Positions 5,337 through 44,759 of a DNA stretch of 64,000 nt are shown here, in pieces. The notes below the pieces were generated by a model that worked only from the letters and a program-made list of their open reading frames with translations, did not search any database and had not been told where the DNA came from. Where the stretch lies: assembly GCA_020853525.1 (NCBI GenBank), contig JADYYS010000033.1, positions 1-64,000 on the forward strand, written 5' to 3'. The first letter of the stretch is position 1. Every line of letters begins with the position of its first letter. The stretch is from Ardenticatenales bacterium. GTDB lineage: Bacteria; Chloroflexota; Anaerolineae; Epilineales; Epilineaceae. The translations under genes and the position numbers were made by a program.

Positions 5337-6281
5337 ATGAGCGCCTCGACATCCGCGCCCGATCCGGCCGCCAGGGGCCGCATCATCGTCACCGGCGGCT
5401 CCGGCCTCATCGGCCGCCGCCTCGTCGCCGAACTCGCCGGCCGCGGCCACGAGGTCGTCGTCCTCTCACGCACCCCGGCGCGCGTCGCCGGGCTGCCGGC
5501 CGGCGCGCGGGCGGTCGGCTGGGACGGCCGGACGGCATCGGGCTGGGGCGATCTGGCGGACGGCGCCGAAGCGATCGTCAACCTGGCCGGCGAGACGATC
5601 GCCAAGCGCTGGACGGCGGGCCACAAGACGCGCATCCTCGAGAGCCGTCTGAACGCCGGCGCGGCCGTCGTCGAGGCAATCCGCGGGACGGCGGTCAAGC
5701 CGCGCGTGCTCGTCCAGGCTGCGGCCGTCGGCTTCTACGGCGCGTGCGGCGGCGAGGTCGTGACGGAGGACAGCCCGAGCAAGCCCGGGCAATTCCTCTC
5801 GGACGTCGTCGTGGCATGGGAGGCATCGACCTCGGCCGTCGAGGCGATGGGCGTGCGCCGGGCGGTGATCCGCACCGGGCTCGTCCTGGCGAAGGATGGC
5901 GGCGCGCTGCCGCCGATGGCCCTGCCGTTCCGCTTGTTCGTCGGCGGCCCGACCGGCAGCGGCCGGCAGTACTACCCCTGGATCCACATCGACGACGTCG
6001 TCGGCGCGATCATCCATCTGATCGGCAACCCACAGGCGCGCGGCGCGTACAACCTGACGGCCCCAACGCCCATCACGAACCGCGCCTTCGCCGCCGCGCT
6101 CGGCCGCGCCCTCCACCGCCCCGCGCTCATCCCCACCCCGGGCTTCGCGCTCCGCCTGGTCCTCGGCGAGATGGCCACGCTCATCCTCGACGGCCAGCAG
6201 GCGGTTCCGGCGCGCTTGCTGGCGACGGGATTCCACCACCAGCATACGAACATCGACGCCGCCCTCCAGTCTCTCGCGTAG
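5337..6281 (+). CDS. TIGR01777-family epimerase/oxidoreductase (SDR fold)
   Basis: A 314-residue protein with an N-terminal Rossmann motif GGSGLIG (about 20-26), RTPARVAG, NLAGETIAKRW and a C-terminal DUF1731-like segment (ALIPTPGFALRLVLGEMATLILDGQQAVPARL). This matches the YfcH/SulA-like TIGR01777 family of NAD(P)-binding proteins. The true substrate is unknown for this family. A GAGGAG motif precedes ATG 5337. The TAG stop lies inside a palindrome (6275-6309) that could act as terminator. Confidence 0.9.
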   Translation: MSASTSAPDPAARGRIIVTGGSGLIGRRLVAELAGRGHEVVVLSRTPARVAGLPAGARAVGWDGRTASGWGDLADGAEAIVNLAGETIAKRWTAGHKTRILESRLNAGAAVVEAIRGTAVKPRVLVQAAAVGFYGACGGEVVTEDSPSKPGQFLSDVVVAWEASTSAVEAMGVRRAVIRTGLVLAKDGGALPPMALPFRLFVGGPTGSGRQYYPWIHIDDVVGAIIHLIGNPQARGAYNLTAPTPITNRAFAAALGRALHRPALIPTPGFALRLVLGEMATLILDGQQAVPARLLATGFHHQHTNIDAALQSLA

Positions 6282-6309
6282 GGCGCGACGCATGCGTCGC
6301 CCCTACGCG
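6275..6309. repeat. Palindromic repeat, GTAGGGGC family, GACGCATGCGTC core
   Basis: The 16-base perfect palindrome GCGACGCATGCGTCGC (6285-6300) is flanked by CGCGTAGGG and CCCTACGCG, so nearly the whole 35 bases are self-complementary. It contains the stop codon of the upstream gene. The same core recurs at 14323-14346 inside a coding region. Confidence 0.85.
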
Positions 6310-12679: not shown

Positions 12680-15352
12680 TCACGGCGCGCGCATCGCCGC
12701 CCCGTCCGCCAGACGCACCGGTATGAGCAGCCGGTTGCCCTCGACCCGCGCCGCCAGTCCCGCCGCCGCCAGCCCTGCGACCTCGATCCTGTGCGTCGGC
12801 AGTGCCTCCCAATCGCCGTCGCTGACCGTGTACGTGCCGATCGACAGCGTGTAGTCACCCGCCGGCAGGCCGCGCACGTCCAGCGCGTGGCGCGTCGCGA
12901 CGTCGACGCCGGGCGTCCAATCGTCCGTCCCGTCGCCTTCGTCATCGACCAAGCGATCATCGAGCTGGGCGCGCTGGGCGCCGGTGGCATCCAACAGCTG
13001 CACGCTCAGCGTGGCGGGCGGGTCGATCGGGCCGACGGCCCGCCAGGCGAACCGGAGCGCGCCCTGACGGTCGTTGGGCCAGGGCCCGTCCGGCAGGGCG
13101 AGGCCGTGCAGACGGAGGGTCCCGGCAGTGCCGAAGTCGACGGACAGTCGGCGCGACACGGCCGGCAGGAGCGCCCGCGGGTCGGCATCCCGGTAGCCGT
13201 CGATCACGAGGTCGCCGACGGCGTGGTGTTCGAAGCGATGCGCGCCGGTCTCCAGCAAGAGCGTCATGCGCGCGTCGGCGGGTGCGCGTTCGCCCTCTGC
13301 GCGGTGGACGTGCCAGACGCGCGGCAGACGCCCGAGCGCGTCGATCACGCCGCGGGCCATGTGCACGTCGTCCGTCGCGTCGCCGTACTTGATGATCGGC
13401 AGCGGGCCGGCGTAGCGGCGGACCAGGATATTGCGCGAACGCATGACCAGCGCGTCCGTCGCCGGATCCCCGTTGGCGTCGAGGAACGCCGCGACCCCCT
13501 CGTCGGCCCGGTTGCGATAGACCCAGGCCAACGTGATCCCGCCGATCTCGGCAGCGAACGCGGGCGGGTCGACGCCCATGTACTTGGCCAGCAGCTCCGG
13601 GTCCTGGTGGCGCTGCACCTGGTTGAGCATCACCACGAGGTAGTCCGTCGTGTCCGGCGCGTAATCGTCCGTCTGGACGTTCCGGCCGTCGAACAACAGC
13701 CCGAACGCCGCCCGGTAGCGGCTGGCGACCTCGAGCTCCGCCGCGCCCGGCTGCCCGTTCAGGAACGCCGCCGCCTGATCGAGCCCCTCGCCCCACCCGA
13801 CGAGCACCAGCCGCTGCGCCCGCTCCGCCCCGCCGACGAGCGGGTCGTACCACGTCACCCAGTACGGTCCGATCGGCAGGACGAGCGCCAGCTGCGTGGT
13901 CAGCACGATCGCCGCCAGTAGGGGCACGGCATGCCGTGCCCATCCCCCGGCAACCGCAATGGGCCGCTGTCCTGCCTCACGGAACGTGTCGTCGGCATCC
14001 ACCGGCACGGGGATCCCATCGGCAATCGACGGGATCGACGCGCCGTCGGAGGGCACGGCATGCCGTGCCCCTACACGGTCGTCGTGGCGGGGTTCGCTGC
14101 GCCTCACTGCACGCACCGCCCACCACCGCCGCATCCAGTCGACCGCCCCCACCCATCCCGCCGCCGCGACGATGTCCGCTGCCGGGAACGCGGGCAGCAG
14201 GTAGCGATCGAATTCCTTGGTGGCTGCCGTGAGGAACACGGTGAACAGGACCATGAACCCAACAAGCGTCGCGACACCCGCCCCGAACGCGGAACCATCC
14301 CCCTCGTGATCCCCCCCCCCACGTAGGGGCGACGCATGCGTCGCCCTCCTCCCCCCCACCCCAACCCCCCCCCCCGCTCCCACCACCCCCCCCACCACCC
14401 ACGGGCTCGCCCTGAGCCACCACACGATCCCATAGAACAACGGACCCGCGTCATCCCGCACCTCGCCCGCGAAGAAGCTCGCCCGCTCGAGCGTTGCCGT
14501 GCCGTGCGACGCCAATTCGCTCAAATACAGCCGCGCCACCGCCAGCGGCTCGGCCCACAGCGCCGGCCAGACGACCACGAGCGTCGCGGCCGCCACCGCC
14601 AGCCAGAGCACGCCTTCGCCGATCATCGTTCGCAGTGAAGTGCCGCGCCGCCGCGCCAAAGCGAGCCAGAGCACGCCCCCGAAGCCCACCACGAACAGCG
14701 CCGGCGACTTGGCCGCCAGTGCCATGCCGAGGGCGATGCCGCTGGCCACCAGCCAACGCCGACGCGCAAGCCGCCGTCCGTCCCCCACGAGGAAGATCAA
14801 CAGCGTCAACACGGCCACACTCATCAGCCCCGTCAGCACCCCGTCCAAGTGCAGGAAGCGCGAGTGCGCCAGCCAGAACGGGTCGAGCGCCACGAGCGGC
14901 GCCGCGACGAGCGCCGTGCGCGTCCCGAGCAGCCGACCGGCCAGCCAGACGATCAGGCCGGCGAGCACGGCGGTGAACCACGCGATCCGACGCCGGCCGG
15001 CGTACAGCCGGTCGAGGATCACCTGCCGATCGGCCGGCGCGAGCTCGTAGAGCAGCTCGCTGCTGTCCGAGCCGAGACACGCCTTCGACCACGCCGCATC
15101 CGGATCCACCGGCAGCCCGAGCCCGCCCAGCCACATCGTGATCACGCCGGGGTGGCCGGTCTGGAGCGTCAGCTCCATGTCGCCCGTCCGGATCCCGGTG
15201 TGGAAGCCGACCGTCCGGCAGACCCAGCGCAGCTCGTCGGGCGTGAGGTGGGCGTCGATGCGCCACAGGCGGGGCGCGAGGGCGAGGGCGAAGGTGGCAA
15301 CGGCGAGGGCGGCCAGCATGCGAACGTAGCGGGCGGTCAACGTGGGGAACAT
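12680..15352 (-). CDS. Large membrane glycosyltransferase (GT39/ArnT-like) with C-terminal beta domain
   Basis: An 890-residue protein. Residues 1-520 carry about 11 transmembrane helices, with the early acidic motif LTPDELRWV and GHPGVITMW in the first outer loop, as in lipid-linked-sugar-dependent GT-C enzymes (PMT/ArnT class). Residues 520-890 form a soluble region ending in a beta-sandwich (PATLSVQLLDATG..DYTLSIGTYTVSDG). ATG 15352 is preceded by a perfect TATAAT seven bases upstream, with no ribosome-binding site. Odd features: two ARHAVP peptides (about residues 428 and 471) and one ATHASP peptide (about residue 337) are encoded by palindromic repeats, and poly-C tracts of 10 and 11 bases sit in the same loop. 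Acceptor and donor are unknown. Confidence 0.85.
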   Translation of the reverse strand: MFPTLTARYVRMLAALAVATFALALAPRLWRIDAHLTPDELRWVCRTVGFHTGIRTGDMELTLQTGHPGVITMWLGGLGLPVDPDAAWSKACLGSDSSELLYELAPADRQVILDRLYAGRRRIAWFTAVLAGLIVWLAGRLLGTRTALVAAPLVALDPFWLAHSRFLHLDGVLTGLMSVAVLTLLIFLVGDGRRLARRRWLVASGIALGMALAAKSPALFVVGFGGVLWLALARRRGTSLRTMIGEGVLWLAVAAATLVVVWPALWAEPLAVARLYLSELASHGTATLERASFFAGEVRDDAGPLFYGIVWWLRASPWVVGGVVGAGGGVGVGGRRATHASPLRGGGDHEGDGSAFGAGVATLVGFMVLFTVFLTAATKEFDRYLLPAFPAADIVAAAGWVGAVDWMRRWWAVRAVRRSEPRHDDRVGARHAVPSDGASIPSIADGIPVPVDADDTFREAGQRPIAVAGGWARHAVPLLAAIVLTTQLALVLPIGPYWVTWYDPLVGGAERAQRLVLVGWGEGLDQAAAFLNGQPGAAELEVASRYRAAFGLLFDGRNVQTDDYAPDTTDYLVVMLNQVQRHQDPELLAKYMGVDPPAFAAEIGGITLAWVYRNRADEGVAAFLDANGDPATDALVMRSRNILVRRYAGPLPIIKYGDATDDVHMARGVIDALGRLPRVWHVHRAEGERAPADARMTLLLETGAHRFEHHAVGDLVIDGYRDADPRALLPAVSRRLSVDFGTAGTLRLHGLALPDGPWPNDRQGALRFAWRAVGPIDPPATLSVQLLDATGAQRAQLDDRLVDDEGDGTDDWTPGVDVATRHALDVRGLPAGDYTLSIGTYTVSDGDWEALPTHRIEVAGLAAAGLAARVEGNRLLIPVRLADGAAMRAP
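13922..13941. repeat. In-gene palindrome GGGCACGGCATGCCGTGCCC
   Basis: A perfect 20-base palindrome inside the membrane glycosyltransferase gene, read as ARHAVP in frame. Identical copies occur at 14051 and 28556. Confidence 0.95.
14051..14074. repeat. In-gene palindrome, second copy, with CTAC end
   Basis: The same 20-base palindrome (14051-14070) followed by CTAC, giving the GCCCCTAC end of the family. It is read in frame as ARHAVP in a loop of the glycosyltransferase. Confidence 0.95.
14311..14320. repeat. Poly-C tract (10) in coding region
   Basis: Ten C in a row on the plus strand, read as glycines in the minus-strand glycosyltransferase gene. Confidence 0.9.
14323..14346. repeat. In-gene palindrome, GACGCATGCGTC core
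   Basis: GTAGGGGC followed by GACGCATGCGTC and GCCC. The 20 bases 14327-14346 are a perfect palindrome, read in frame as ATHASP. It shares its core with the intergenic copy at 6285-6300. Confidence 0.95.
14365..14375. repeat. Poly-C tract (11) in coding region
   Basis: Eleven C in a row, followed by an eight-C run at 14386-14393, all inside the same glycosyltransferase loop. Confidence 0.9.
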
Positions 15353-27711: not shown

Positions 27712-29082
27712 ATGAGCGGCTCGATCCGCTTCGAGGGCGTCACGAAGTCGTTCGTCATCGCCCACGACCGGCCGCGGAGCTTCCAGGAGGCGTTCGTCCG
27801 CGTCTTCCGCAGGACCGCCGCGGCCGACCGCGACGTCCTGGTGGCGCTCGACGACGTCTCGTTCGACATCGCGCCCGGCACGGCCGTCGGCCTCGTCGGG
27901 CCGAACGGGACCGGGAAGAGCACGGCCCTCAAGCTGGTGGCGCGAATCGTCGAGCCGTCCGCCGGGCGGGTCGAGGTCAGCGGCCGCGTCGCCGCGCTGC
28001 TCGAGCTCGGTGCCGGCTTCCACCCCGACCTCACCGGCCGCGAGAACGTGTACCTGAACGGCTCGCTGCTCGGCCTCGGACGGCGCGACATGAGCCGCCG
28101 CTTCGACGCGATCGTGGCCTTCAGCGAGCTCGAGCGCTTCATCGACGTGCCGGTGAAGCACTACTCGTCCGGCATGTACATGCGCCTCGGCTTCGCCACG
28201 GCCATCCACCTGGACGCCGAGATCCTGCTGATCGACGAGATCCTGGCCGTGGGCGATCAGGCCTTCCAGCACAAGTGCCGCGAGCGGATCACGTCCTTGA
28301 AGAAGTCCGGCGTCACGATCCTCCTCGTCAGCCACGACACCGAAGCCGTCCGCGAGCTCTGCGACCGCGCGATCTGGCTCGAGGACGGCGTCATCCAGGC
28401 GGACGGCCCGTGCGACGACGTGCTGCAGGGCTACTACCGCAGCATGGTCGCGCGCGAGGAGGCGCGGTTGGCGGCGGAGACGGCAGCCGAATCAGCTGCA
28501 GTCGCCTCGACGTCGTTCGACGCCGACGTCGCCGACCCAGCCACCGCTCGCGCGGGGGCACGGCATGCCGTGCCCTCCGCCACTGCCCTCCCGCCAACAT
28601 CGCCCGCCCAACGCCCCCCCTCCCCCGACCGCTTCGGCAGCGGCGAAATCGAGATCACCGACGTCCACATCCTCGGCCCCGACGGCACACCCCACCCCAT
28701 CGTCCTGACCGGCCAGCCGATGACGATCCGCCTCCACTACATCGCCCACCGCCGCATCGAACACCCCGTCTTCGGCATCGCCGTCCACCGCGACGACGGC
28801 ACGCACGTGTCCGGCCCCAACACGCGCGACGCCGGGTTGTCGATTCCCTTCGTCGACGGTCCGGGGACGATCGACGTCCACATCGACCGCCTGACGCTCC
28901 TCGAGGGCAACTACGAGCTCTCCGCCGCGTGCTACGACGACGCGCTGTCCCACGCCTACGACCACCACCACCGCCGCTTCCCGATGCGTGTCCGCGCCGG
29001 CGACATCCGCGAGCGCTTCGGCCTGCTCGCGCTGGACGCCGACTGGACCCATCGGGCAGGCGAAGGGGTCGACAAGCGCTGA
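27712..29082 (+). CDS. wzt: Polysaccharide ABC exporter ATPase with C-terminal glycan-binding domain (Wzt type)
   Basis: A 456-residue protein. ATPase domain: Walker A GPNGTGKST (63-71), LLELGAGFHPDLTGRENVYLNG, the signature region VKHYSSGMYMRLGFA, Walker B ILLIDEILAVGD and SHDTEAVRELCDR. C-terminal domain (about 310-450) resembles Wzt-C: IEITDVHILGPDG..PMTIRLHYIAHRRIEHPVFGIAVHRDDGTHVSGPNT, which in family members recognises the end of the exported glycan. The linker between the domains includes the peptide ARHAVP (about residues 283-288) encoded by a 20-base palindrome. The stop overlaps the next ATG by one base. Confidence 0.92.
   Translation: MSGSIRFEGVTKSFVIAHDRPRSFQEAFVRVFRRTAAADRDVLVALDDVSFDIAPGTAVGLVGPNGTGKSTALKLVARIVEPSAGRVEVSGRVAALLELGAGFHPDLTGRENVYLNGSLLGLGRRDMSRRFDAIVAFSELERFIDVPVKHYSSGMYMRLGFATAIHLDAEILLIDEILAVGDQAFQHKCRERITSLKKSGVTILLVSHDTEAVRELCDRAIWLEDGVIQADGPCDDVLQGYYRSMVAREEARLAAETAAESAAVASTSFDADVADPATARAGARHAVPSATALPPTSPAQRPPSPDRFGSGEIEITDVHILGPDGTPHPIVLTGQPMTIRLHYIAHRRIEHPVFGIAVHRDDGTHVSGPNTRDAGLSIPFVDGPGTIDVHIDRLTLLEGNYELSAACYDDALSHAYDHHHRRFPMRVRAGDIRERFGLLALDADWTHRAGEGVDKR
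28556..28575. repeat. In-gene palindrome GGGCACGGCATGCCGTGCCC, third copy
   Basis: Identical to the copies at 13922 and 14051. It is read in frame as ARHAVP in the linker between the ATPase and glycan-binding domains of Wzt. Confidence 0.95.
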
Positions 29083-44734: not shown

Positions 44735-44759
44735 GGGCGGGTCTGAGACCCGCCCCTAC
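44735..44759 (-). terminator. Palindromic repeat acting as likely terminator
   Basis: GGGCGGGTC (44735-44743), loop TGA, GACCCGCCC (44747-44755), then CTAC. Read on the minus strand, the stem is followed by TTTTCC, so it would end transcripts of the anti-sigma gene. The GCCCCTAC end makes it a member of the palindrome family at 6275, 13922, 14051, 14323 and 28556. Confidence 0.6.

Follow-up and report, generated by a model that had tools for sequence, protein, structure and literature searches.

Two described systems come closest to the elements considered here. The first is the superfamily of GTAG-tagged REPs, 24 families of which – one in Thermomicrobium roseum – were described by Di Nocera et al. 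(2013, PMC3733652), whose passages drawn on here also report intragenic copies with their encoded residues, tags giving stop codons, and dimers that are usually head-to-head (GTAG outside) and mostly 20–100 bp apart. The second is subclass 2.4 of the TnpA_REP transposases, characterised by the motifs NH[IFV]H, WQ and YIxNNP (Table 1 of Quentin et al. 2018, PMC6006769), in which, according to the sections of that paper used here, REPs are inserted in the transposase gene itself. At the level of titles, and with PMC8266576 also searched, no work nearer than these two papers was found, later publications included.

The DNA analysed here – 64,000 nucleotides of an Ardenticatenales bacterium, referred to below as the window – contains a PMT-family membrane glycosyltransferase gene (12680–15352, minus strand; PF02366, 1.2e-11) that carries three REPs and keeps its frame intact. 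The initial annotation had described palindromic repeats inserted in frame in this gene and lying in loops, and this holds true: all three are read in frame in the minus-strand ORF, in predicted loops. Two of them are copies of GGGCACGGCATGCCGTGCCC (type 1; 13922–13941 and 14051–14070), which together with a third copy at 28556 amount to 3 matches in the window, with up to three mismatches allowed, against 0.03 expected; the other is GGGCGACGCATGCGTCGCCC (type 2; 14327–14346), of which a related copy lies at 6285. With their GTAG included, the elements span 13918–13941 (plus strand; GTAG + GGGCACGGCATGCCGTGCCC, giving WARHAVPL on the minus strand), 14051–14074 (minus strand; VGARHAVP on the minus strand), which is the head-to-head partner of the former, and 14323–14346 (plus strand; GTAG + GGGCGACGCATGCGTCGCCC, giving ATHASP). 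That each copy encodes the same peptide from both strands is correct for the core in the ARHAVP/ATHASP phase only, the whole element being larger and asymmetric, with an unpaired GTAG on one side. The 12-base GACGCATGCGTC of the initial annotation is not significant alone (2 matches against 1.06 expected, one mismatch allowed), whereas the full GTAGGGGCGACGCATGCGTCGCCC is. The pair (13918–14074, with no strand of its own) folds into one long single-strand hairpin (−58 kcal/mol, z −6.2). Around the type 2 element lie poly-C tracts at 14311–14320 (10 bases), 14365–14375 (11) and 14386–14393 (8), the first two being the longest homopolymers of the window; these tracts are possible sites of slippage (phase variation) or of assembly error.

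Two further copies in the window illustrate other relations to genes. The third type 1 copy (28552–28575, plus strand), whose tag has decayed to GCGG, is in frame within a Wzt-like ABC exporter ATPase (27712–29082, plus strand), in the linker between ABC_tran (residues 46–177) and Wzt_C (306–438). The second type 2 copy (6283–6306, minus strand) has at its degenerate second foot a TAG that is the stop codon (6279–6281) of the upstream Epimerase/DUF1731 gene (5337–6281, plus strand), and the DUF1731 domain of the gene thus ended is complete. A further REP type (GGGCGGGTCTGAGACCCGCCC + CTAC) is found at 44735–44759 and also on contigs C9 and C46.

At the site of the pair, the glycosyltransferase has about 50 residues absent from relatives, most of them encoded by the REP pair (13918–14074), where the 18 aligned relatives (one paralogue included) have a short loop. 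At the ATHASP element its loop is longer than theirs, three of them (L146, L148 and L149) having long but unrelated loops. As expected of the insertions that the initial annotation had proposed, the REP-encoded residues of both sites occur in no other row of this alignment, the empty sites being judged from relatives that are 27–37% identical and whose loops vary in length anyway. The one exception is the paralogue, encoded on contig C11, whose counterpart of the ATHASP loop contains a separate in-frame pair. A relative of the glycosyltransferase is present in 51 of 60 genomes, and many of the alignments break at query residues 400–415/470–484, that is, at the pair. The AlphaFold model (17-row alignment; mean pLDDT 83) falls below 50 at a few segments only, including 331–350 and 430–463; these are the two insert regions, predicted as disordered loops between long helices, although the helix that follows the pair (from 469) already begins within the pair's last part.

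Across the whole genome, 65 exact type 1 copies are spread over many contigs, against 0 in a reversed-pattern control, so that the genome-wide excess of dispersed elements suspected from the glycosyltransferase alone is borne out. Comparison of their flanks shows the element to be a palindrome flanked on one side by an unpaired GTAG; the far side varies, and the tag is generally single-sided and is perfect in 58 of the 65 copies. The three bases preceding GTAG, looked at as a possible target-site preference behind the single reading phase described below, are CGT-like (C in 38, G in 44 and T in 39 of the 58). Pairs less than 300 bp apart account for 41 of the 65 copies, and 15 of the 18 pairs having both tags intact are head-to-head, with GTAG outside and spacers of 28–258 bp. 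The full type 2 GTAGGGGCGACGCATGCGTCGCCC occurs at 12 exact places among the matches listed, equivalent to 11 sites (one tagged on both sides), with 0 in the reversed control, and further stem types of the same build (GAAGCAATTGCTTC and GGGTCTGAGACCC) are present in the same genome. With tag, dispersal, mainly extragenic location and head-to-head dimers all observed, these palindromes belong to the GTAG-tagged REP superfamily. Denser arrangements also occur: positions 1020–1213 of locus L212 (contig C59) hold a cluster of five palindromes resembling GGGCGATGCATGCATCGCCC, of which the outermost two have a GTAG pointing outwards and each supply the stop to a coding end. In another genome of the phylum (G238, contig C1, about 1065701–1067689) the same GTAG palindrome is repeated in tandem about every 190–210 bases.

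Intragenic copies were called by a codon-usage scan trained on 31 ORFs of the window and applied to all 65 exact type 1 copies. Only 14 copies, at 10 loci, are intragenic, compared with 6132 of 10200 random positions (about 60%) in the same stretches (binomial p 3e-10); for type 2 the figure is 1 of 23 copies examined, a set that excludes one listed place with one mismatch (C34:403). By rule, copies at gene ends giving the stop codon number 6 of 65 for type 1 – including one spurious case, a window copy antisense to the glycosyltransferase – and 7 of 23 for type 2. Depletion from genes and copies at gene ends are what one would see if the palindromes were hairpins with a regulatory function in RNA or DNA, serving as terminators, attenuators or binding sites and kept for that reason, with the in-gene copies incidental. 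However, the invariant GTAG, the pairing, the several stem types in one genome and the association with a REP-associated tyrosine transposase (RAYT) are all features of REPs, and we consider this explanation improbable, though a regulatory role could be a secondary one of REPs.

The intragenic copies share a reading phase. The ARHAVP phase is used by 14 of 14 type 1 copies, whichever the direction of the tag (in two of the 14, L042 and L043, the coding score is weak on one side), whereas random positions are phase-neutral (2128, 2007 and 1997 over the three phases). The single intragenic type 2 copy has the same phase, too few cases to replicate the test. One reading phase of the element runs into TAG within the tag. 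Counted by locus, 10 of 10 in a single phase has a chance of about 5e-5 if the phases are equal but of 0.03 under the 37:15 ratio found in the RAYT set below, so that the bias could be partly general. The spacing between palindromes is a multiple of three in 4 of 4 intragenic pairs, as against 5 of the 15 other pairs tallied.

The proteins that host these copies are unrelated, and their genes retain frame and domain order. According to Pfam, the copies lie in or next to an asparagine synthase (1e-102); a homoserine dehydrogenase (6e-45), where the match to the NAD-binding domain encloses the pair; and a fragment whose C-terminal domains are of the DnaE type (HHH_6 and OB fold), which we read as the C-terminal part of DnaE. 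The other hosts by Pfam are the Wzt-type ABC ATPase (with the copy in its interdomain linker), PMT-type glycosyltransferases and a PTPS_related membrane protein; one host protein (L021) has no Pfam match. PDB searches confirmed two of the host enzymes, in alignments that fail to span the insert.

One intragenic pair points to the enzyme that may mobilise the family. A RAYT gene on contig C47 (L042, ORF 713–1447) contains, in the segment that separates the HuH motif from the Tyr motif, the same pair of type 1 REPs, read in frame in the ARHAVP phase. Its match to NF047646 (1.2e-17) is below the curated 80-bit cut-off, and the Pfam Y1_Tnp model does not match it. Its motifs are NHIH, WQ and YIADNP, two of which agree with those of subclass 2.4 while the last differs at one residue; as in that subclass, a REP lies between HuH and Y, the frame is kept and the HuH–Y distance is long, whereas the paralogue L017, which is without the insert, has a distance of 52. 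The predicted structure of L042 is good in the core and poor in the insert (about 101–170), and its best PDB match is 4er8 (E 2.8e-6, TM 0.64 by target), the structure of a REP-associated tyrosine transposase in complex with a REP hairpin, which gives L042 the fold of TnpA_REP/IS200 transposases. NF047646 finds four RAYT-like genes in the genome, on C47, C59, C6 and C8, and only that on C47 has the type 1 REP: the C59 gene has no insert, the C6 gene has a repeat-rich one and the C8 gene is adjoined by related REPs. Y1_Tnp matches in this genome are confined to C9 and C59. The C8 gene (L245), beside which lie two copies of GGGCGACGCG..CGCGTCGCCC, may be a partner of the type 2 family; the repeated insert of the C6 gene (L247; GGRGEASATIPV..ADASPL) looks like an eroded, long-looped REP pair, as in L062, L063 and L090.

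Relatives of this RAYT often contain palindromes of their own. A palindrome with an arm of at least 9 lies between the HuH and Tyr motifs in 63 of the best 79 of at least 569 relatives, drawn from many phyla – a proportion that is not an unbiased prevalence, the query itself bearing a REP. Elsewhere in these ORFs the figure is 15, and after codon shuffling of the segments it is 0.55. Among canonical RAYTs, 0 of 22 uncut matches have such an arm, 5 of 8 cut loci have one somewhere in the stretch, and an earlier regular-expression search, which caught 9 of 30 loci, gave 0 positives. Where GTAG can be placed in this best-scoring set, 37 palindromes have the phase GTA-GGG, 15 xGT-AGG and 0 the TAG phase, and the same core occurs in both phases (L058 and L061; L097 and L109). 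A quick tree of low resolution, with 47 of 78 inner branches open, implies at least 8 changes of phase and shows the stems clustering by clade. Similarity of stems correlates with that of the proteins (r 0.28, reached in 0 of 2000 permutations), both within a phase (r 0.41) and across phases (r 0.15; 41 of 2000). The internal core recurs in the gene's own fetched flanks (up to about 20 kb in total) in 23 of the 63 loci, against 0.72 expected from foreign flanks. A strict rule that the internal REP equals the dispersed one does not hold in G118 and G238, two other genomes of the phylum: both are rich in the type 1 REP, yet the RAYTs found there carry other internal REPs.

Since near-identical palindromes occur in different phases, never the stop phase, and the stem follows the enzyme, the RAYT-internal REP may be heritable as DNA: a part of the gene that is preserved or re-acquired rather than a chance insertion, and whose stem changes with the enzyme. 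We advance this reading tentatively, as less than probable. If it is true, the gene would include the substrate of the enzyme it encodes, so that specificity, enzyme and element stay linked when the gene is transferred horizontally, and it would be the source of the copies that come to be translated within host proteins, in the one phase tolerated there.

The same data bear on the idea that ARHAVP and ATHASP are selected as protein motifs, the palindrome being a by-product of codon choice. The common phase of all intragenic copies of both types speaks in its favour, but the exact palindrome is also found in the 51 of 65 type 1 copies that, by the same rule, lie outside genes, the host proteins are unrelated, the inserts are disordered in the models, and RAYTs of other genomes read the same palindrome in a different phase and hence as a different peptide. 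Conservation at the peptide level is rejected by the two phases seen in RAYTs, and peptide selection is very unlikely. That the palindromes arose by chance, or through misassembly of a GC-rich stretch with poly-C tracts, is favoured only by the C10 and C11 tracts flanking the type 2 copy; it has next to no probability and for type 1 is already refuted, given the excess of copies in the window and over many contigs and the intact frame and domain order of unrelated hosts.

The palindromes are thus best explained as non-autonomous GTAG REP hairpins, very probably moved by the C47 RAYT, whose in-gene copies would persist as translated, structurally neutral insertions; both the agency of this RAYT and the neutrality of the inserts are inferred. 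The transposase would recognise GTAG plus hairpin in single-stranded DNA and transfer copies to new sites, often as head-to-head pairs. Most surviving copies would be intergenic, some providing the TAG stop of an upstream gene, while a minority would enter surface loops or linkers in a stop-free phase, with pair distances that are multiples of three, and persist there in translated form without structural effect. The glycosyltransferase would have acquired one pair and one single element by this route. This mechanism leaves the strict phase (14 of 14) unexplained.

Compared with known systems, the kind of element is already known, and the family of this genome is new and well supported. The initial annotation had looked to the Rickettsia palindromic elements (RPEs; cited in PMC3733652), and the likeness is real insofar as these, too, are short palindromes that are read in frame and become part of unrelated proteins. 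They are nonetheless not the nearest kin, as the short intragenic RPEs are CGTC-tagged (PMC3733652, in the passages used) whereas the tag here is GTAG, and the RPE/CGTC REPs are distinguished by the lack of a dedicated transposase, whereas here a RAYT carries the element. Nor does the implied novelty stand, since the consulted parts of PMC3733652 already describe GTAG REPs that lie within genes and contribute residues to the protein, and those of PMC6006769 describe transposase genes that contain their own REPs. Possibly new are the strict phase exclusivity of copies in host genes and the transposase-internal palindrome kept as DNA across reading frames: the main-text passages of the two papers that were consulted contain no mention of a strict host-gene phase, of two-phase palindromes or of a stem–protein correlation. 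Within PMC3733652, the passages concerned likewise neither name the stem families ACGGCATGCCGT and GACGCATGCGTC nor raise the single phase of all intragenic copies. The points of greatest interest are what restricts tolerance to a single phase and whether there is a reason for the retention of the palindrome within the transposase.

With the GTAG REP superfamily, as presented in those passages of PMC3733652, this genome shares the unpaired GTAG, the stem, the head-to-head pairs, the mainly intergenic location, the tags that give TAG stops, the minority translated in frame and even REPs in DnaE/DnaE2 genes. What it adds is a mobile hairpin family that inserts translated segments into housekeeping enzymes and surface-polysaccharide proteins of a high-GC lineage, with a candidate mobilising enzyme in the same genome. 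With TnpA_REP subclass 2.4, as covered by the sections of PMC6006769 used here, it shares a REP placed between HuH and Y with the frame preserved, REPs of the 'double foot' form, a scattered distribution over phyla and a variable peripheral segment; beyond these sections come the controlled count in the best 79 of at least 569 relatives, the two phases of near-identical palindromes, the correlation between stem and transposase similarity, and the occurrence of the same REP in host proteins. Because transposase and REP lie in one gene, comparisons across phyla can follow the specificity of the enzyme jointly with its element, which makes the spread of REPs directly testable in vitro.
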